Positions 3,426 through 21,963 of a stretch of 27,916 bases of DNA are shown piece by piece; position 1 is the first letter of the stretch, and each line of letters opens with the position of its first letter. The position numbers were made by a program, and so were the translations under genes. The notes beneath the pieces are model-generated. The model saw only the letters and a list, made by a program, of their open reading frames with translations. It had not been told where the DNA came from and did not search any database. Source of the DNA: a virus. The DNA lies in the IMG/VR virus record IMGVR_UViG_3300013100_000026, positions 1 to 27,916 of that record; one strand, given 5' to 3'.

Positions 3426-4580
3426 TTACACCTCCGTTACTAGCGGTGCCTCCTTACGAGGCTTGACTGAGAGCAACGCTACAGGATGGATCGGCCTGCC
3501 GTCAAGTACGAGGAACATGTACTTTGCCAGAGCAGGGAAATGCTTTTGTATGGCCACGGCTGCGGTCTTTCTGTCAACCATGTCCAGACGCTCGTGAAGA
3601 ACTGTGCTTTCCAGAGTGTCGATGGCAGAGTACACCGTCGAAACAATCTGAGAAGCCTCCTTCAAGAACTTCTTTCCAGCATTGTCGATGAACTCGTGGA
3701 ACTCTTCAGGCAATTCACGCTTCAGGTCTTGAAGCGCACCGCCCTTCACCATGTGCTCCCAGACAGTCTTTTCAGAAAGTCCAGTCACCAATCGGTGCAA
3801 CGCGATGTAGTCCGGAGACTTCATCTTCGTACGGAAGTCAGGAAGGTCGTTTCCGTCCCTATCCTTACGACTCGTCCAAAGGTACACGAATCCCTCGTCA
3901 CCATCGGGAATTGCAGCGGTGTCACCTGAGTCAAAGTTGGCGAGGATTCGCTTAACCTTGTCAGGCCACTCAGCCTTGTCGAACTCCTGAACATCAGAAT
4001 TGCCGGTCTCGTTGTCGATAACGTCAAGCAGCACTAGGCCCTTGTAGTCACCGTAGTCAACGACAATTCTGTTCTCCGGGTAGATGATTTCGAACAGGTA
4101 GGTCTTACCCTGTAGTGGCGAAAACACCATTTCGGGAGGCAGGTTGTTTGCAGACTCTGCCACTGTCTCTAGGTAGAACTTGGTTGCCCACTCGGCCTGC
4201 TCTGAATGGAATGACCCACGAGTGGAAATCCATTCCTTAGTTGGAGTGCCGTTGCAGTAGTCATCGGTTACGAGAATACCCAGCGATCCGTCCATCTTCT
4301 CCATGCGCAGGGTATGACCGATGGGAGGGTACTGAATCACACCCTCGTCCCAATTGAAGAACTTGGGGAAGGGGCGAGCCAGAACGGTGTTTGTCTCGTA
4401 GTTCCAGACAAGTCCACGACATGCGAGGGTTACGTCGTCCCATGCACGAGCGAACTGAGCCTTTGGCGTGTAGTTGAAGATTTCCCAAGGAAACTTCTCA
4501 TGTGTGCGGGCAGAGACGTTTCCGTCTTCGATATGCCTTGCAAGCAGTTCTGTGTCTAGAATCTCGTCTAGGCTTGTCAT
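3426..4580 (-). CDS. RNA ligase, T4 Rnl1-like
   Basis: 384 aa (T4 Rnl1 is 374). ATP-dependent RNA ligase that seals 3'-OH and 5'-phosphate RNA ends, classically cleaved tRNA anticodon loops. Nucleotidyltransferase motifs in order: motif I EKMDGSL (94-100, AMP-accepting K95), motif III YLFEIIYP (161-168), motif IV EGFVYL (229-234), motif V KMKSPDYI (252-259), then a helical C-terminal domain as in Rnl1. ATGA overlap with the upstream gene and a purine-rich GAGGAAATC before the start. It lies in the same operon as pnk, giving the healing-and-sealing pair known from T4. Confidence 0.92.
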   Translation of the reverse strand: MTSLDEILDTELLARHIEDGNVSARTHEKFPWEIFNYTPKAQFARAWDDVTLACRGLVWNYETNTVLARPFPKFFNWDEGVIQYPPIGHTLRMEKMDGSLGILVTDDYCNGTPTKEWISTRGSFHSEQAEWATKFYLETVAESANNLPPEMVFSPLQGKTYLFEIIYPENRIVVDYGDYKGLVLLDVIDNETGNSDVQEFDKAEWPDKVKRILANFDSGDTAAIPDGDEGFVYLWTSRKDRDGNDLPDFRTKMKSPDYIALHRLVTGLSEKTVWEHMVKGGALQDLKRELPEEFHEFIDNAGKKFLKEASQIVSTVYSAIDTLESTVLHERLDMVDRKTAAVAIQKHFPALAKYMFLVLDGRPIHPVALLSVKPRKEAPLVTEV

Positions 4581-4828: not shown

Positions 4829-5016
4829 CAAATCTCCTTAACGTTGGCAATCTGGAATCGTGTCCACCAGCCGTCCAACCTCAGGTCTAGATATGCCATG
4901 TCTTCCTCAGCCGGTACGTACTTGCGCATGATTGACTGCACTGTATCATAGTCCTCCTGAGTCATGTCAACATGATAGGTAGAGAAGCCGCTGATAAATC
5001 CTTTATGGTCAGCCAT
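4828..5016 (-). CDS. Hypothetical protein, 62 aa
   Basis: Acidic small protein (MADHKGFISGFSTYHVDMTQ at the N-terminus, WWTRFQIANVKEI at the C-terminus). No family recognised and no membrane segment. Start ATG lies 8 nt inside the end of nadR with AGAGGAAG upstream. It links the NAD cassette to the RNA-ligase genes in one transcription unit. A perfect 5-bp hairpin (4962-4966/4971-4975, loop TCAA) lies at +42 to +55. Confidence 0.6.
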   Translation of the reverse strand: MADHKGFISGFSTYHVDMTQEDYDTVQSIMRKYVPAEEDMAYLDLRLDGWWTRFQIANVKEI

Positions 5017-6052
5017 TGTGCTTCCTCTCGTATGCCCTCAGAGGCTCGGAATACGCTTCGAAGTTATTAAAGATCAGAGGAAGTGCCTCAGATGCCCTCC
5101 TGTTCAAGCCCTCCGCGTCGAGAACAATGTAGTTTAGACTGTACTTCTCACACACGTTGACCCAGTATTCATCGCTACCCTCGCGCACATCGCCACCATA
5201 CCGGAGCGGGTCTGCCTCAAATGGGATATTGCTCTTGGTGATCAGGTAAAGGTCTGACTTCTGGCGAATAGCATCAGCGACAAGACCCTTGGGCGGTGCT
5301 CCGATGGTGTCCTGCCAGTGCGGGAATTCCCAGTAGCCTACCGTGGAGAACAGGTCAGTGTCTTGAATGATGAACTGATGCGGCTCCCACATTTGTGCCG
5401 ACTGCTGCAACGCCGACTGACCCTTCCAGATATCTGTCATCGAAGAGACCGTAATCTCATTGACAGTGTTCTCTAGGTACGGACGGGCATACTCTGGAAC
5501 AAAGTATGAGTCTGTAACTGCCGAGAGACGCTTGGCCAGCGTTGTCTTTCCGGTGCTCTCCGCGCCGAAGATTGTAATGCGTCGGGTGAGGTGCTTGGCA
5601 AACTCAGGAGCAATTGCCGACCACATGTCGTAAACATCCTCGCGCACCTTGGTGGCCTTGATTGGCATAATGGAACGCTCAGGATCGTACGGCATGAACT
5701 TGCCATTCATTTCATCGGCCAGACGCTTGCCATAGACCTCAGAGGCAATGTAGGTGTCTCCGGGCTTTGCACCCTTGCCGTTCAGAATGCCTCGCCACAT
5801 GTCCCAAAAGCCGGGAGCGTCAGCGTTCTGCTCCATTTCATGGTAGACGCTGTTGACGCGGGTGTTGGGAAGTGCGTCAGCAATTTCCACAACTGCCTGA
5901 ATACGATGAAGTGGAAATGGCTCAGACGGCTGGGTACAAACGACCACCGTGCTCTTTGTCCCAATTGTCCCGGCGTACTGATCAGCGAACTGAATCAGTG
6001 CCTTGTGACCCTTGGTGACTGGCATTGCTGTCAAAAGTACCCAGACCGTCAT
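5009..6052 (-). CDS. nadR: NadR-like NMN adenylyltransferase / ribosylnicotinamide kinase
   Basis: 347 aa bifunctional enzyme. The N-terminal nucleotidyltransferase (about 1-150) should make NAD+ from NMN and ATP; the C-terminal kinase (about 158-347) should phosphorylate nicotinamide riboside to NMN. Evidence: VLLTAMPVTKGHKALIQFA (nucleotide-binding loop), SEVYG (104-108), IKATKVRED (131-139, the adenylyltransferase signature near the C-end), then Walker A GAESTGKTT (163-171), EYARPYLE (187-194) and QDTD (230-233), all as in NadR. It lacks the N-terminal repressor HTH of enterobacterial NadR. The usual HxGH reads TKGH, so the first His is replaced. AAGGAG in the end of pnuC serves as ribosome-binding site. 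Confidence 0.9.
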   Translation of the reverse strand: MTVWVLLTAMPVTKGHKALIQFADQYAGTIGTKSTVVVCTQPSEPFPLHRIQAVVEIADALPNTRVNSVYHEMEQNADAPGFWDMWRGILNGKGAKPGDTYIASEVYGKRLADEMNGKFMPYDPERSIMPIKATKVREDVYDMWSAIAPEFAKHLTRRITIFGAESTGKTTLAKRLSAVTDSYFVPEYARPYLENTVNEITVSSMTDIWKGQSALQQSAQMWEPHQFIIQDTDLFSTVGYWEFPHWQDTIGAPPKGLVADAIRQKSDLYLITKSNIPFEADPLRYGGDVREGSDEYWVNVCEKYSLNYIVLDAEGLNRRASEALPLIFNNFEAYSEPLRAYERKHNG

Positions 6053-6056
6053 GAGT

Positions 6057-6806
6057 TTACTCCTTGTTTAGATGATCCCAGCCGGGATGCATTTCGATTG
6101 GCTGAACCGCTGCGGGTTGCACCGGCTCAATGCCTGCCTTGCGACTCTGGTTCCAAACATACCACCCGTAGAGCGTGTTGGCAAGGAAGAAGATGTACTG
6201 GACACCAACGATGAACAGGCCAGCGGTGAAGTAGGTGTAGATGGCAAACACGTTGACCACAGCCCATACCGCCCAGTTCTCCAACTTCTTGTTATCCAGA
6301 AGGAACTGAGCCAGAATGGTCAGAACAAGGATAACCGTGTCGGTCCATGCGAACGATCCACCAAAGTGGGTGTTCAGACCAAGAGCACCTGCATACGCCG
6401 CGCCTGTAGCCATAAGGTACACCGGAACCCACTTGATTTCAACCCTAGAGACAGGGCGAGTCGCAGCGTCGGAACGCCAGCGGAACCAGCCGTAAATTAG
6501 GCTGAGTGTCAGGTAACCGTTCAGCACCGCCGATGCCAGCAGACCACTCTGAACAAAAAGGATGCAGTACAGAGCCGTGCTCAGGGCACCGATGGGGTAG
6601 TTGATGCGGCGTTCCTTGACGCACAGGTACGTGCAGGAGTAAGAGGTAAAGACGGCAGCAGCCTCTAGGAGATTGACGCTATCGATCCATCCCGCTCCCA
6701 TGCCGATCAGGTAGGAGAGGCCGGTGGCAACAACAGCCACCACCAGACTCACCAGAATGTCATTCTTCGGCCCAACTCGTGGAGCCACTGCAACTGCGGT
6801 CATCAT
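6057..6806 (-). CDS. pnuC: PnuC-like nicotinamide riboside transporter
   Basis: 249 aa integral membrane protein with about seven hydrophobic helices. Recognised by the second-half signature FLLDNKKLENWAVWAVVNV followed by YTYFTAGLFIV and NTLYGWYVW, plus IYGWFRW in the first half, all typical PnuC features. It imports nicotinamide riboside, which the kinase domain of NadR next door traps as NMN. The reading frame extends upstream to 6902, but the likely start is the ATG at 6806 (ATGATGA overlapping the stop of the upstream gene), with 6803 as alternative; GAGGG precedes both. Confidence 0.88.
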   Translation of the reverse strand: MMTAVAVAPRVGPKNDILVSLVVAVVATGLSYLIGMGAGWIDSVNLLEAAAVFTSYSCTYLCVKERRINYPIGALSTALYCILFVQSGLLASAVLNGYLTLSLIYGWFRWRSDAATRPVSRVEIKWVPVYLMATGAAYAGALGLNTHFGGSFAWTDTVILVLTILAQFLLDNKKLENWAVWAVVNVFAIYTYFTAGLFIVGVQYIFFLANTLYGWYVWNQSRKAGIEPVQPAAVQPIEMHPGWDHLNKE

Positions 6807-8281
6807 GCCCTCGCGTTCTCTCGGACCTCTCGGAATGGGGTCACTGAGTGGAAGATACCGTCCTTCCAGACGGTTGTCAACTCGGACCTCTGTAGAGCCC
6901 ACTCAGAAGCGTCGTCCACAGCGTAGTAGTCACCAGTCTCCATGTTCTTCAACACAGCGATGCGACCACGTAGCGACTTCTTTAGACCGTTGTCGGTCTT
7001 GGGGTTCTTGAAGATCGGCTTTTCCACACCGTTGATGGTGACGTTGGTGGCCTTCATGGCGAACCCGAAAGTGTCACGAGTCTGGTACTGGTAACCGAAG
7101 GAACCCATACCGAAGACGACATTTGCCGAAGCAAAGCCCTTGGCGTCAAGACGCTCTAGAATGTCCTTAGCACGCTCGTAGTTGATGCTGTCTCCGTAGA
7201 TAACACCAATGTGAGAGTCGAGCAACTTGTGACCGGTTTCGGTCTCGGTGCCGCCGAAAATCTCCCAAAGGAGTTCAACGACACCCTTTTCCTCAGGAGT
7301 GCGATCCTCAGGCGAACGGTACGAGCCCTTGATACCACAAAGGATATCAGCAGGATCACCAGAGTCAGGACGAATAACCAACTTACCGTCACGCGCCATG
7401 ATCTTGTCCTTTAGGGCGGGAAGGGTCTCGGTGATGACCTTCCACAAGTCCCACGTGTCAGAAACAACCGAAAGGATACCGCTCGGGTAAAGGTTGATAA
7501 GACGCTCGTAGGTCTCCTGCTCGTCATCCTCACCACCGGCACACATCACAGAGTGCTCGGTAGCAGCGACAGAGCCACCAATGAGGTATTCCTCGGCGTT
7601 GCTAACGTAGAACTTCTCCACGGCTTCAATTGCAGGAATGGTGTCCGTACCCGTGAACTGGGTTAGGTGACCAATGCCCGAAAGGGCAGCCGACTCAACA
7701 CCGGCCATACCACGCATCGAGAAGTCGTGACCCTGCCAGTCCACGAACTCAGCAGGCGATCCCGTCTTTGCAGCATACTCTTCCAGCAGACCGCGCATAC
7801 GCTTGGCGATGGTGGCGCTGGTCATGGGCATCCACAGAACATTGGACATAAGAGTCTCAATGTAGTTGACCAGCCAGAAGAAGTCCGGGTGCGTGTTCTC
7901 GACCGTGAACATCGGAACACGGAGCGGAACGAGAGCGCCCTCAGGAAGAGACTTGAACTCTAGAGGCAGGTAGCCCAGTTCGTGAAGCGCACGAATGTGA
8001 TCAGAACCAATCTCATTCGGGCCGAGGTACGTGTTCATACGACGCTCGTACTCAGCACACACGAAGTCAACGTCTTCATCGAAGAAGTCATCAAACTGGT
8101 CCTGAAGGTATTCCTTTAGGAAATACTGAAGACCGACGTTCACCACGTGATCGATACCATCGATTCGGCTACCGCGCGGGGTCCAGTTGGAGTAGACAAA
8201 CTCCGTTCCTGCGGGGTACTGGCGGCGGTGGTCAACCTTGTAACCATCGCAGAGAGTGATAACATTCAGCATATCATGCAT
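6803..8281 (-). CDS. nadV: Nicotinamide phosphoribosyltransferase-like (NadV/NAMPT)
   Basis: 492 aa, the size of human NAMPT (491). Converts nicotinamide plus PRPP to NMN. Full-length family match: N-terminal DGYKVDHRRQYP, YSNWTPRGSR (30-39), FVDWQGHDFSMRGM (179-192), TEHSVM with the phosphorylated-type His (H243), VIRPDSGDP (302-310, PRPP/phosphate binding), VIYGDSIN and a C-terminal SLRGRI region. The start overlaps the upstream prs homologue by 8 nt. Close relatives of this family in phages can also act as nicotinamide-ADP-ribose transferases (NARP1-type), which sequence reading alone cannot exclude. Confidence 0.93.
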   Translation of the reverse strand: MHDMLNVITLCDGYKVDHRRQYPAGTEFVYSNWTPRGSRIDGIDHVVNVGLQYFLKEYLQDQFDDFFDEDVDFVCAEYERRMNTYLGPNEIGSDHIRALHELGYLPLEFKSLPEGALVPLRVPMFTVENTHPDFFWLVNYIETLMSNVLWMPMTSATIAKRMRGLLEEYAAKTGSPAEFVDWQGHDFSMRGMAGVESAALSGIGHLTQFTGTDTIPAIEAVEKFYVSNAEEYLIGGSVAATEHSVMCAGGEDDEQETYERLINLYPSGILSVVSDTWDLWKVITETLPALKDKIMARDGKLVIRPDSGDPADILCGIKGSYRSPEDRTPEEKGVVELLWEIFGGTETETGHKLLDSHIGVIYGDSINYERAKDILERLDAKGFASANVVFGMGSFGYQYQTRDTFGFAMKATNVTINGVEKPIFKNPKTDNGLKKSLRGRIAVLKNMETGDYYAVDDASEWALQRSELTTVWKDGIFHSVTPFREVRENARA

Positions 8282-9137
8282 AGTTTGTCAGTCCTTCCGT
8301 GACCTTTAGCGTGATGACGCGAGGGTCGTTGATTTCAACAGAGTCGGTGGAAATGAGGTTGTTGTAGTGCTGCAAAAGGGTTGCAGTGCCCTTGGTGAAA
8401 AGTCCGTGCGTGACGAACAGGTCGAGAGTCACACCATATACCTTGTGAGCCTCTTCTGCAAGTCCGATGAACGTGCCGCCCGCGTCACACAGATCGTCCA
8501 CCACGAGGTAGTGGGAATCAGGGATGAGGTGATCGAAGAAGTGGAAGCCGCTCAACTTGTTGGTGTGCGGGTCACGAGTCTTGCCAGCCTGAAACACCGG
8601 CAGTTCGAAGTGTGCAGCAGCCTCCTGAGCACGCTTCTGAGCCCCAAGATCGGGCGCAATAATGCCAGCGTAGTCCTTGACGTGAACACCAGCCGTCTCC
8701 ATGCAGTGGCGCAGGCGAATTTCTGGGACCACGAGCCTGTCGATCAGGGCGGTGGTGGCCAGAGAGTGAGGATCAAGAGTGACAACATTCTGGAAGTTTC
8801 TCTCATTGACCATCTTGGCAACGCTCTTTAGAGTAAAGAGCCAGTCGCCTTCCCACTTGATGCGATCCTGTCGGGCACCGGGGACACGAGGAAGGACAAG
8901 GCTCCGAATCGGATTGCCCCTCTCAGCAAAAGAGTCCGCTACGAACATATGCGTAACGAACTCGTGTAGTGATTCCGGACGGCTAATCATGAATGTGTCG
9001 TTATGACTGGCATTGAAGTTCCAGACAGTCTCTAGATCAACAACAGGGGTGTTATCTGGATACATACCCAGATGAACGGTTTCAGCGACACGATTAATAG
9101 AAAAGCGATCCGTCTTGTTTCCAATTTGTAGTGACAT
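8274..9137 (-). CDS. Ribose-phosphate pyrophosphokinase homologue (Prs-like)
   Basis: 287 aa. Motifs: RQDR (89-92) for ATP binding, LDPHS (121-125) as the catalytic His region, and LVVDDLCDAGGTF (211-223), the PRPP-loop signature. The N-terminal half diverges from cellular Prs, as in other phage versions. It should supply PRPP, the co-substrate for the adjacent NadV; in NARP1-type phage pathways a Prs-like enzyme instead makes ADP-ribose pyrophosphate. Start chosen at 9137 because AGAGAG precedes it; an in-frame ATG at 9155 lacks a ribosome site. First gene of the NAD operon, downstream of tRNA-Cys. Confidence 0.87.
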   Translation of the reverse strand: MSLQIGNKTDRFSINRVAETVHLGMYPDNTPVVDLETVWNFNASHNDTFMISRPESLHEFVTHMFVADSFAERGNPIRSLVLPRVPGARQDRIKWEGDWLFTLKSVAKMVNERNFQNVVTLDPHSLATTALIDRLVVPEIRLRHCMETAGVHVKDYAGIIAPDLGAQKRAQEAAAHFELPVFQAGKTRDPHTNKLSGFHFFDHLIPDSHYLVVDDLCDAGGTFIGLAEEAHKVYGVTLDLFVTHGLFTKGTATLLQHYNNLISTDSVEINDPRVITLKVTEGLTNYA

Positions 9138-9192
9138 TGTTTTTCTCTCTTTCATTTGAGTACCGGCGTTTGTCGAACCCGGTAGATTTTAA

Positions 9193-12355: not shown

Positions 12356-12438
12356 CGCTCCGAGAGGGATTCGAACCCCCATCCGTCCGTTACGCTGATT
12401 ATACTGGAAGGCTTAGAAGACCTCGGCGCTATCGGAGC
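12356..12438 (-). tRNA. tRNA-Arg-like (TCT), D arm absent
   Basis: Perfect acceptor GCTCCGA/TCGGAGC and T arm GGGGG-TTCGAAT-CCCTC; anticodon stem GAGGT/GCCTT with loop CTTCTAA (TCT). Only seven bases (TAGCGCC) separate acceptor and anticodon stem, so there is no D arm, while the variable region is 27 nt and carries GCGTAACGGACGG. The same layout recurs at 16244-16320. It starts two bases after the predicted RNA start. Confidence 0.6.
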
Positions 12439-16243: not shown

Positions 16244-16320
16244 TTGGGGAGAAGGGATTCGAACCCTCATTTTCAGTCCGTTATGCACTACTGGTTCGTA
16301 GCCAGCGCCAATACACCCCA
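16244..16320 (-). tRNA. tRNA-Arg-like (ACG), D arm absent
   Basis: Acceptor TGGGGTG/CTCCCCA (one T-T mismatch), anticodon stem GCTGG/CCAGT with loop CTACGAA (ACG), T arm GAGGG-TTCGAAT-CCCTT, A73. Only seven bases (TATTGGC) lie between acceptor and anticodon stem; the variable region is 21 nt with GCATAACGGACTG. Same plan as the TCT gene at 12356-12438. A standard D-arm fold leaves no valid anticodon stem. Confidence 0.6.
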
Positions 16321-16321
16321 G

Positions 16322-16393
16322 TGCCGATTGAGGGTAACGATCCCCCACTTGATGATCTTCAATCGCCCGTGCATCCATTAACACTTAATCGGC
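16322..16393 (-). tRNA. tRNA-Phe (GAA)
   Basis: Acceptor GCCGATT/AATCGGC, D stem GTGT/GCAC, anticodon stem GGCGA/TCATC (one C-A mismatch) with loop TTGAAGA (GAA), T stem GGGGG/CCCTC. The T loop reads ATCGTTA instead of TTCGAAT, so it may be a weak or decaying gene. Confidence 0.6.
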
Positions 16394-16989: not shown

Positions 16990-17475
16990 CTAAAAGTCGG
17001 GCAACTCCGTCAGTCTATCAGCATCGATGGTGACCTGTCTAGCCTGCTCGGCTGTCAATGTTGGGTTGAATCTACCACGTTCATGGGCTTCGCGCAAGTT
17101 GAGCAAGAGCCTCAGTGCATGCCGCCGCCTCTTGTGGTCATCGTTCTCAACACCGAACATCCAGAACGACTTGATGGTTCTAAAATACGTGTCTCTCATG
17201 TGTGTCATGTTGGGCATGTAGGTGTCCGTGATGAATTCTATGCGGTTCACAGTGGCCTGCTCGGAGAACATGGCTTCAAGATACTGGGGCACACCCTTGT
17301 CACAGTACAGCAGGAATTTGTCTAGTGATGCCTTGACAACATCATCATCACCGATGATTTTTTGCTTTGGCCTGAACTTGTTGAAACCATAAACCTCCAT
17401 GCGGTCATGGTCAGAGTTCGCATGGTGCAGGCCATACAGACGTGATCCATGCGGTGTGCTGAATAGTAGTTCCAT
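16990..17475 (-). CDS. RlaP-like nucleotidyltransferase (polymerase-beta fold)
   Basis: 161 aa. N-terminal GSRLYGLHHANSDHD: G10-S11 and metal-binding D22/D24, the nucleotidyltransferase signature of the RlaP/PF10127-type family found next to RNA ligases and in many phages. Later FNPTLTAEQARQ and arginine-rich KRRRHALRLLLNLREAHERG. The family is predicted to add nucleotides during RNA repair; the substrate is not established. Start ATG at 17475 with AAAGGAGG upstream, right after the strong terminator at 17496-17537. Fits with pnk and the two RNA ligases in the window. Confidence 0.78.
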   Translation of the reverse strand: MELLFSTPHGSRLYGLHHANSDHDRMEVYGFNKFRPKQKIIGDDDVVKASLDKFLLYCDKGVPQYLEAMFSEQATVNRIEFITDTYMPNMTHMRDTYFRTIKSFWMFGVENDDHKRRRHALRLLLNLREAHERGRFNPTLTAEQARQVTIDADRLTELPDF

Positions 17476-17495
17476 GTCATCCTCCTTTGGGTATA

Positions 17496-17537
17496 GAAAA
17501 GGGCTGGTGCGCCCGAAAGCATCCACCAGCCCTTTTT
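17496..17537. terminator. Strong intrinsic terminator, symmetric
   Basis: AAAAGGGCTGGTG (17497-17509) pairs with CACCAGCCCTTTT (17524-17536) around a 14-nt loop, with T runs in both directions. It ends the tRNA-Ser transcript on the minus strand. Confidence 0.9.
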
Positions 17538-17540
17538 GGG

Positions 17541-17623
17541 CGGAAGGTGAGGGAGTCGAACCCACATCGGTTTTACCCTTAGCAGTTTTCAAGACTGTGT
17601 GCTACGCCAATTGCCGACCTTCC
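17541..17623 (-). tRNA. tRNA-Ser (TGA)
   Basis: Acceptor GGAAGGT/ACCTTCC, loop CTTGAAA (anticodon TGA), long variable arm with GGT-AAA-ACC, T loop TTCGACT, G73 as in Ser tRNAs. A GGGC-TTCG-GCCC hairpin sits four bases upstream (17627-17638) and may guide processing. Confidence 0.88.
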
Positions 17624-18455: not shown

Positions 18456-18508
18456 TATTCTCCTTTAAGTGACGGCGTGTGCTCCTATACACTATACCCA
18501 TATACCGG

Positions 18509-18530
18509 GCACCGGGATTCGAACCCGTGC
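18509..18530 (-). pseudogene. Orphan tRNA T arm
   Basis: Directly after tRNA-Pro on the transcript: a T-arm hairpin with GGG-TTCGAAT-CCC and outer GCAC/GTGC but no matching 5' half. Looks like the leftover 3' end of a deleted tRNA. Confidence 0.5.
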
Positions 18531-18536
18531 TTCACG

Positions 18537-20981: not shown

Positions 20982-21274
20982 CTGTCCTCCTTGATATTGA
21001 AAAGGTTGCCCAGAACCATTCTGGCTCGTAGGTGGTCGTTGGGATGCTTGTGAGGTGACATGAAGAATCCACGTCGCCTGTTCTCAGACTCAGCATCGAT
21101 GCAAATTCCTGCGAGGTAGAAGACCCCGAACAGGAACATCATGATCACTCTAGCAACCCAGAAGCCGAGTGTCAACTTGAAGTTGTAGTAGTGAATGTGC
21201 TCGTACGCGTTGATCCTGACAGCAATGTATCCTGCAAACCAGTACAGCGCCAGCCCTACGAATAGCCAGATCAT
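20978..21274 (-). CDS. Membrane protein, 98 aa
   Basis: Two hydrophobic segments: IWLFVGLALYWFAGYIAV at the very N-terminus and FWVARVIMMFLFGVFYLAGICI in the middle; the C-terminal third is basic and soluble (ENRRRGFFMSPHKHPNDHLRARM). ATGA overlaps with both neighbours place it firmly in the RNA ligase/membrane operon. No family recognised. Confidence 0.73.
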   Translation of the reverse strand: MIWLFVGLALYWFAGYIAVRINAYEHIHYYNFKLTLGFWVARVIMMFLFGVFYLAGICIDAESENRRRGFFMSPHKHPNDHLRARMVLGNLFNIKEDR

Positions 21275-21963
21275 TGGCGGAAGTCCACGTGCTTGATCTT
21301 GGTGATGACGCGCTTACCAGATCGAGTGAACAGGGGAACCTTGGGAACAGCGATAAGTCCCTCAGCCTCAAAGTCCCCCCACGCTGACCTCATACCAGCG
21401 TGTCCATTGGATCGCATGTCGATGAAGTTGCCAGCACGGTCATGAGCAAATCCGTTTGCAACCATGGCAAAACCGCTCCACAGGTTACCAGTGAAGACCA
21501 CCGGCACAGTGTCGAAGCCAGTCTTGTCACCAAAGTCATCCACGTCCTTGCGAATAAGCCAGAAGTCTCCAACGCGTACGTCGAAAGCCACGAATCGTGG
21601 AGCATCACCGTACTTTCCACCGCCATTGATCTTTGGACCATAGCCCTCACCATACACGGTAAGTTCACCAATGTCGTGCTGCTCCATGACGGCAACCACG
21701 TTGTCGCTCAGTGAGGAACACAGGTCTTCAAGGTGGTGCAGCAGTGGCTTGGGAGTCTGAGCATTGTCAGTGCGTCCAGCAATGTTGAAACCACCATAGC
21801 GGTTGAACGTCAGACGAATGTTGGTACCGTCCACCTTCTCGGTGAACTCCCACTCATTCTCTGCGAGATATTCCAGTTCGGGCATGCACCAATCACCTTG
21901 GAGCATTACGCCCTTCTTGTCGCGCTTGTATGGCGCATTGATCTTGTGGTACTCGTCACTCAT
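21271..21963 (-). CDS. RNA ligase, Rnl2-like single-domain
   Basis: 230 aa. Nucleotidyltransferase motifs in order: I EKVDGTN (42-48, AMP-accepting K43), III VYGEGYG (103-109), IIIa FVAFDV (124-129), IV EGLIAVP (201-207), V ITKIKHVDF (220-228). It stops right after motif V, so it lacks the C-terminal domain of T4 Rnl2 and is a minimal catalytic core like several phage ligases. Should seal nicked RNA; together with the Rnl1-like ligase at 3426-4580 the phage has two different sealing enzymes. Start overlaps the upstream gene by 8 nt. Confidence 0.9.
   Translation of the reverse strand: MSDEYHKINAPYKRDKKGVMLQGDWCMPELEYLAENEWEFTEKVDGTNIRLTFNRYGGFNIAGRTDNAQTPKPLLHHLEDLCSSLSDNVVAVMEQHDIGELTVYGEGYGPKINGGGKYGDAPRFVAFDVRVGDFWLIRKDVDDFGDKTGFDTVPVVFTGNLWSGFAMVANGFAHDRAGNFIDMRSNGHAGMRSAWGDFEAEGLIAVPKVPLFTRSGKRVITKIKHVDFRQ

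Follow-up and report, generated by a model that had tools for sequence, protein, structure and literature searches.

A 77-nt element on the minus strand (16244–16320) of a viral DNA of 27,916 nucleotides (IMG/VR record IMGVR_UViG_3300013100_000026, positions 1 to 27,916; the window) very probably encodes a tRNA-Arg with an ACG anticodon, a non-circularly permuted topology and a working role in translation. The strand order and the relocated helix of this RNA are established by covariation, and we infer its exact numbering and three-dimensional fold. To our knowledge, known tRNAs, even those that lack an arm, keep one order of arms; no report of tRNAs in the present order was found in the open-licence PMC literature, and it is likely that these phage-borne RNAs represent the first natural tRNAs whose chain is permuted non-circularly, in which the L-shape is rebuilt. 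As far as the sequence tells, the RNA behaves like a tRNA, and we regard it as a new topological variant of tRNA.

The ACG gene, which lies directly after a tRNA-Phe gene (16321–16393) on the same strand, has the order TGGGGTG-TA-TTGGC-GCTGG[CTACGAA]CCAGT-AGT-GCAT-AACGGA-CTGAAAAT-GAGGG[TTCGAAT]CCCTT-CTCCCCA-A and scored 61.1 bits with the permuted model R1 (described below). Its acceptor stem is formed by TGGGGTG (16314–16320) and CTCCCCA (16245–16251), with a U.U mismatch at pair 6-67, and is followed by U8, A9 and the five nucleotides TTGGC (16307–16313 in total), the latter being read as residues 22–26 and as the 5′ strand of the relocated helix. The anticodon arm GCTGG-CTACGAA-CCAGT (16290–16306), assigned from the sequence and model R1, precedes GCAT (16283–16286), read as residues 10–13, the D-stem partner strand displaced to the 3′ side of the anticodon arm, and the relocated D-loop AACGGA (16277–16282), which supplies A14, A15, G18, G19 and A20. 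The connector CTGAAAAT (16269–16276), whose final U is read as U48, leads to the T arm GAGGG-TTCGAAT-CCCTT (16252–16268), and discriminator A73 (16244) ends the gene, CCA not being encoded. As only the seven nucleotides TATTGGC separate the acceptor from the anticodon stem, a local D-hairpin between these two stems is impossible; in this copy two D-stem positions pair, namely U16310 and G16309 (positions 23 and 24) with A16284 and C16285. The spacer, the CTACGAA loop and the motif shared with a second gene, all described in an earlier note on this DNA, are thus present at this locus.

That second gene, a sister permuted tRNA-Arg(TCT) on the minus strand at 12356–12438 (43.8 bits with model R1), reads GCTCCGA-TA-GCGCC-GAGGT[CTTCTAA]GCCTT-CCAGTATAATCA-GCGT-AACGGA-CGGAT-GGGGG[TTCGAAT]CCCTC-TCGGAGC-G, and a single base separates it from the tRNA-Met gene that follows. 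Its relocated helix, GCGC (12426–12429) with GCGT (12392–12395), is paired at all four positions, compared to two in the ACG copy, and it carries a 12-nt linker (12396–12407) and the D-loop AACGGA (12386–12391). The window contains exactly two matches to the pattern CCAGTAN{0,6}GCRTAACGGA, one in the ACG gene and one at 12386–12407 in the TCT gene, versus none in 100 shuffles. The shared motif proposed in the earlier note stands in part: since CCAGTA partly overlaps the 3′ strand of the anticodon stem in the ACG gene and belongs to the linker in the TCT gene, the true shared motif is GCRTAACGGA only, that is, a D-stem strand and the D-loop. The TCT relative in Rhodococcus phage NiceHouse has GCCC/GGGT where the window has GCGC/GCGT, a double compensatory change.

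Relatives were sought by several routes. A pattern scan of IMG/VR returned L006, a record carrying the two permuted genes also present in the window phage, and L005, a diverged ACG relative with acceptor pairs 1-72 and 2-71 altered on both sides. BLASTN against cultured phages matched NiceHouse (both genes), the Streptomyces phages TunaTartare, Comrade, Gilson, Mildred21, Navo and Braelyn and the Microbacterium phages A3Wally and Zooman; no tRNA annotation was present on the permuted genes in the phage records read. One broad scan fixed only T-arm letters and UAA..GGA, a second fixed the ACG anticodon arm and UAA..GGA, hence both the anticodon and A20, and a further scan required a base other than A after GG. 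A structural parser, which required near-complete pairing in the acceptor, anticodon and T stems, yielded at least 179 distinct candidates, at least 170 of them in the family; nine of the 179, mostly misread ordinary tRNAs, failed the motif rule. Following the non-A-after-GG scan the total reached at least 188 distinct sequences, at least 185 with both core pairs; three of the 188, in which neither relocated pair forms, were excluded, so that counts on 185 members are conditioned on those pairs; the 99% pairing given below precedes this filter and is unconditioned. On the same 3.17 Mb, the parser gave 253 matches in real sequence and none in reversed or first-order Markov sequence. A motif-free scan gave 43 matches, most of them misread ordinary tRNAs, and uncovered at least three members that narrowly miss the regular expression (L340, L283 and L134) and no additional amino-acid class. 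Escherichia phage SP15, a possible member, does not parse and was rejected.

Two initial MAFFT alignments (A1 and A2) were set aside, members with an 8-nt spacer or a long linker having been misplaced. Model R1 was built from alignment A3, comprising 30 sequences picked from 42 in which linker plus strand measure 7 nt, the D-loop motif 8 nt and the connector 4–8 nt, and a search with R1 of 100 sources (the window and 99 of the 152 loci listed) produced alignment A4. In the records searched, permuted genes scored at least 43.8 bits and everything else at most 34.3 bits with this model.

Standard tools largely pass over these genes. ARAGORN called 18 tRNAs elsewhere in the window and missed both the ACG gene and its TCT sister, and an Rfam search of the window matched the TCT gene weakly (36.5 bits) and did not match the ACG gene. 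Among the matches listed, ARAGORN calls overlap six of 185 members, with wrong boundaries or anticodons, as in NiceHouse, where what it calls Arg(TCT) is a misfit of the permuted gene; with the Rfam tRNA model, some members score just above the cut-off. Single-sequence energy folding backed no model: for the ACG gene the RNAfold minimum-energy structure differs from the permuted one and is no better than those of shuffled sequences, and z-scores are approximately 0 for both permuted genes of the window. An AGT/ACT hairpin within the region after the anticodon and an RNAfold extension, UGUAUU/AGUGCA, were rejected, both being broken in relative L005.

The energy result and the single acceptor mismatch of the window ACG copy would suit a decaying pseudogene or a chance fold, a reading to which we nevertheless give no probability, given at least 185 distinct members with compensatory changes, the occurrence of the family in phages of nine host genera and the lack of parser matches in control sequence. 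The proposal of the earlier note that the two genes reflect a conserved alternative tRNA design and not random decay is thereby borne out, and its caveat that the motif could be an unrelated repeat, or the genes variable, is contradicted.

The relocated helix emerged from mutual information calculated over all column pairs, with no structure assumed, for 135 relatives with a 7-nt spacer. Spacer position 11 and the nucleotide just before UAA..GG were paired in 99% of sequences (n = 135 among the matches listed; GC 76, TA 24, AT 21 and CG 12), and spacer position 12 and the next base upstream likewise in 99%, with all four Watson-Crick types (n = 132). High information with an excess of pairing was confined to the acceptor, anticodon and T stems and these two pairs, the four bases of which are not fixed by the three broad scan patterns or the parser rules. 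In alignment A3 the full structure pairs 99.5% of cells (slid partners, 35–45%) and the relocated helix 98.3%, with a covariation score reached by none of 500 shuffles. In A4 (130 distinct sequences) the relocated helix is paired in 97.7% of cells, slid structures in 38–48% overall, and none of 500 shuffles reached the covariation score or the percentage paired; by one of five measures, the number of pairs changed on both sides, 36 of 500 shuffles reached the real value. Parsimony on a rough tree made without the columns concerned gave 23 and 26 pair-state changes at the two relocated pairs, similar to the 37 at acceptor pair 3-70 and 22 at anticodon pair 30-40. The family alignments also show a 7-bp acceptor stem, a 5-bp anticodon stem with a 7-nt loop and a 5-bp T stem with a TTCRA loop.

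These data bear directly on whether the gene lacks a D arm, as the earlier note had it. A D-armless tRNA of the kind seen in metazoan mitochondrial tRNA-Ser(AGY), with a variable region that is long and conserved yet unpaired, would explain a spacer with no room for a local D-hairpin, and such a tRNA is workable in bacteria: a 2024 paper (PMC11551756) states that all known bacterial tRNAs are cloverleaf and shows that evolved E. coli could use a D-armless His tRNA, the mini HisT. We consider this reading very unlikely, as the spacer pairs with the strand after the anticodon arm through all four Watson-Crick types, the second strand is followed by a D-loop-like UAA..GG with G18G19, A20 or U20 and a covarying 15-48 pair, and the element is about the full length of a tRNA. 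A D-stem therefore exists, its partner strand and D-loop having been relocated 3′ of the anticodon arm, and the supposedly odd variable region is in fact that strand and loop. Permuted tRNAs share with D-armless tRNAs (mitochondrial tRNA-Ser and mini HisT) the absence of a local D-hairpin between the acceptor and anticodon stems, and differ from them in possessing a relocated D-helix and D-loop and in being about 77 nt long, i.e. not shortened.

The outer positions of the relocated helix pair poorly in the seven-nucleotide class, s13 with l-3 in 51% and s10 with U13 in 27%. An 8-nt-spacer class (36 members of the filtered set) has an outer helix between spacer positions 9–11 and the three bases after GGA; because roughly one-fifth of the family carries this elaborated version, one fixed numbering does not fit the whole family. 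A sub-class of permuted ACG tRNAs (L145, L143, L147, L186, L367 and L368) has a further short hairpin separating the D-loop from the T arm, resembling a relocated long variable arm.

Mapped on canonical tRNA, the permuted chain would correspond to an exchange of two blocks, residues 10–21 (D-stem 5′ strand and D-loop) and 22–43 (D-stem 3′ strand and anticodon arm), and would run 1–7, U8, A9, 22–26, 27–43, a short linker, 10–13, the D-loop, a connector to 48, the T arm and 66–73. If spacer positions 10–14 are equated with 22–26, and the strand before UAA with 10–12, its U being 13, the covarying pairs become 12-23 and 11-24, which are the central pairs of the D-stem. Residue 9 lies near 22–23 in the tRNA fold, 44 near 10 and 26, and 21 near 48, and the new connections would therefore be short. 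Such a block swap could leave the L-shaped core intact, rebuilt from the same bases through 11-24, 12-23, U8.A14, 15.48, G18.U55 and G19-C56. The bases for U8.A14, G18.U55 and G19-C56 are present throughout and only 15-48 varies, although the search patterns or the parser partly dictated G18G19, TTC and the UA that precedes residue 15. Among the matches listed, residues 15 and 48 are A-U in 180, G-C in four and G-G in one of 185 members (Fisher p 1e-7); under this numbering residue 48 immediately precedes the T arm and forms the normal 15-48 (Levitt) tertiary pair.

The permuted RNA retains much of a canonical tRNA-Arg (RF00005), namely the acceptor stem, an anticodon arm with A37, a T arm with TTCRA, the discriminator, a CCA that is encoded or would be added, U8/A14, G18G19, A20 and a setting within tRNA arrays. 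Unlike its canonical counterpart, it places the partner strand of the D-stem, with the D-loop, on the 3′ side of the anticodon arm, and it has a D-stem that encloses this arm and an extra linker after residue 43; the family, with its 7–8 nt spacer and relocated helix, does not follow the cloverleaf order of acceptor, D, anticodon, variable and T. Allo-tRNAs are bacterial tRNAs of odd secondary structure with unusual acceptor and T lengths and a canonical order of arms; permuted tRNAs are similarly unusual in secondary structure, but in these the order of arms is changed. In the circularly permuted tRNA genes of some algae and archaea the 3′ half comes first, and processing yields a canonical mature tRNA. 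The phage genes also have an altered order of segments, yet their ends are normal, the parsed members beginning and ending with an acceptor strand and having no 3′ half ahead of the 5′ half, and it is the interior that is swapped, so that the mature RNA would itself be permuted.

A parallel exists with the non-circularly permuted hammerhead ribozymes, in which, according to PMC10085705, the order of core segments is changed and the three-dimensional core is thought to be kept; the same paper gives hammerhead ribozymes as the only known natural non-circular RNA permutations. The phage family likewise has re-ordered core segments with conserved core bases and helices, the RNA being a tRNA and not a ribozyme. 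PMC10085705 further notes some tRNA genes with reversed fragments from which a standard tRNA is restored after transcription. An equivalent route for the phage genes, with the transcript being cut and re-ligated into a canonical tRNA, might draw on the RNA ligases that the phage encodes. This scenario is highly improbable: the two ends already consist of the acceptor strands, discriminator and encoded CCA, so several internal cuts and joins would be needed, the compensatory changes keep a helix of the unrearranged transcript, and spacers or splice motifs were not seen in the genes.

Among the 188 distinct sequences listed, Arg anticodons predominate (ACG 86, TCT 58, TCG 18, CCT 5 and GCG 1), accompanied by GAT (12), TAT (4) and CAT (3) and by one misread Ser tRNA. 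A20 is a recognition base of ArgRS in E. coli, and base 20 is A in 167 of 167 members with an Arg anticodon and U in 18 of 18 with GAU, UAU or CAU (among the matches listed); this comparison is free of anticodon bias only for the scan with T-arm letters and UAA..GGA, in which 102 of 102 distinct sequences listed were Arg, some of them also having come from the ACG-arm scan that fixed anticodon and A20, and for the non-A-after-GG scan, in which 11 of 11 listed were GAU or CAU. The discriminator is A in all 18 GAU, UAU and CAU members, which are assigned to Ile or possibly Met. Three CAU members combine U20 with discriminator A (L297:1220-1296, L266:1272-1348 and L066:4321-4397) and may be lysidine-type Ile tRNAs rather than Met tRNAs. 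Arg tRNAs of E. coli usually have A or G as discriminator; the Arg members listed often have U (65 of 167).

CCA is encoded in 118 of the 185 members listed, and its presence or absence matches that in canonical neighbours in 142 of 154 members with at least three ordinary tRNAs at the locus (p 4e-25); the nearest canonical tRNA is within 150 nt in 117 of the 185 listed. In the regions read of eight phages, 11 of 13 permuted Arg anticodons were absent from the canonical set detected, and in six of the eight every permuted Arg anticodon was missing from that set. The 131-kb relative of the window phage has canonical CCT only and permuted ACG and TCT, and Mildred21, which carries four permuted copies, has canonical Arg CCT only and permuted ACG, TCG and TCT; Zooman and A3Wally have a canonical ACG tRNA alongside the permuted one, i.e. 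a duplicate. We infer that the permuted genes are transcribed, charged and used in decoding as functional tRNAs for Arg and Ile, because base 20, the discriminator, the anticodon loop and CCA fit charging and decoding. They would be co-transcribed with neighbouring phage tRNAs and trimmed by host RNase P and other nucleases, a host enzyme would add CCA, host ArgRS would charge the Arg members through A20 and C35, and the ACG anticodon would be deaminated to inosine, thereby supplying Arg during infection.

A main role outside translation, as a decoy, sponge or sacrificial substrate for tRNA-cleaving defences or as a regulator, is less probable by far, albeit not as remote as the D-armless reading. 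It would accord with the RNA-repair-type genes of the window, with the proposal (eLife 85183) that phage tRNAs evade tRNA-targeting defences, and with the restriction of the family to Arg and Ile types, which a general role in translation leaves unexplained; against it stand features suited to real charging and decoding, and the filling of gaps in the canonical set by 11 of 13 permuted Arg anticodons. For functional permuted tRNAs, escape from tRNA-cutting defences would be a reasonable second purpose, since the window encodes RNA-repair-type proteins, and avoidance of antiphage nucleases that target tRNAs, or of host modification enzymes, may be what selected for the class.

By Pfam matches, all on the minus strand, the RNA-repair-type set comprises a PNKP-type kinase-phosphatase (1815–2702), a T4 Rnl1-type RNA ligase (3426–4580), a second RNA ligase (21271–21963) and an RlaP-family gene (16990–17592), the last of which lies 670 nt from the permuted ACG tRNA. 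Such genes suggest that the phage faces tRNA-cleaving defences.

The at least 185 distinct relatives are nearly all in phage contigs, and the cultured carriers span phages of nine bacterial genera. The parser confirmed members in Xanthomonas phages X1 and XacN1, Stenotrophomonas phage DLP_6, Mesorhizobium phage Cp1R7A-A1, Maribacter phage Panino, Caulobacter phage CcrColossus, Pseudomonas phage PA11, Microbacterium phage Pumpernickel and Streptomyces phage Yaboi, and uncultured phages of 642 kb and 735 kb also carry permuted tRNAs (11 of 12 fetched regions were positive overall). A genome-wide pattern scan found members in two bacterial contigs, one of which, of 75,082 bases, is identical in length to a member-bearing IMG/VR contig and is therefore suggested to be a phage contig; searches with model R1 of 148 and 146 genomes of the two phyla concerned, at 32 candidates scored per genome, yielded no further members. 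The design thus recurs in large phages of many unrelated bacteria, across many phyla, almost always unrecognised. tRNA finders consequently under-count phage tRNAs, and the apparent gaps among Arg isoacceptors in several tRNA-rich phages arise because permuted genes go unrecognised. If the permuted topology is true, the rule of one order of arms for all tRNAs would be broken, and the synthetase, EF-Tu and the ribosome would read shape and not chain order, translation thus accepting another topology. The family would then serve as a natural test of what defines a tRNA and as a source of starting points for orthogonal tRNAs, and it is directly testable since cultured phages of the laboratory hosts Caulobacter, Mesorhizobium, Streptomyces and Microbacterium carry members.

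Further features of the window were noted, again on the minus strand. A cluster at 5009–9155 has Pfam matches to AAA_28 (NadR-like), an NMN transporter and a NAMPT-type phosphoribosyltransferase, together with a protein judged by eye to be PRPP-synthetase-like and having no Pfam match; we take this cluster to resemble phage NAD-replenishing pathways. A short protein encoded at 381–713 has a Pfam match to PTH2 peptidyl-tRNA hydrolase. Directly downstream of a tRNA-Pro gene, at 18505–18535, lies an orphan 3′ half resembling a T arm and acceptor strand with no matching 5′ half, possibly a tRNA remnant. Among the phage contigs, tmRNA genes were observed in a relative of the window phage (L352:13766-14125) and in L354 (15625-16014), with unusual tags of 29 and 15 residues, respectively, that do not end in the usual ALAA.
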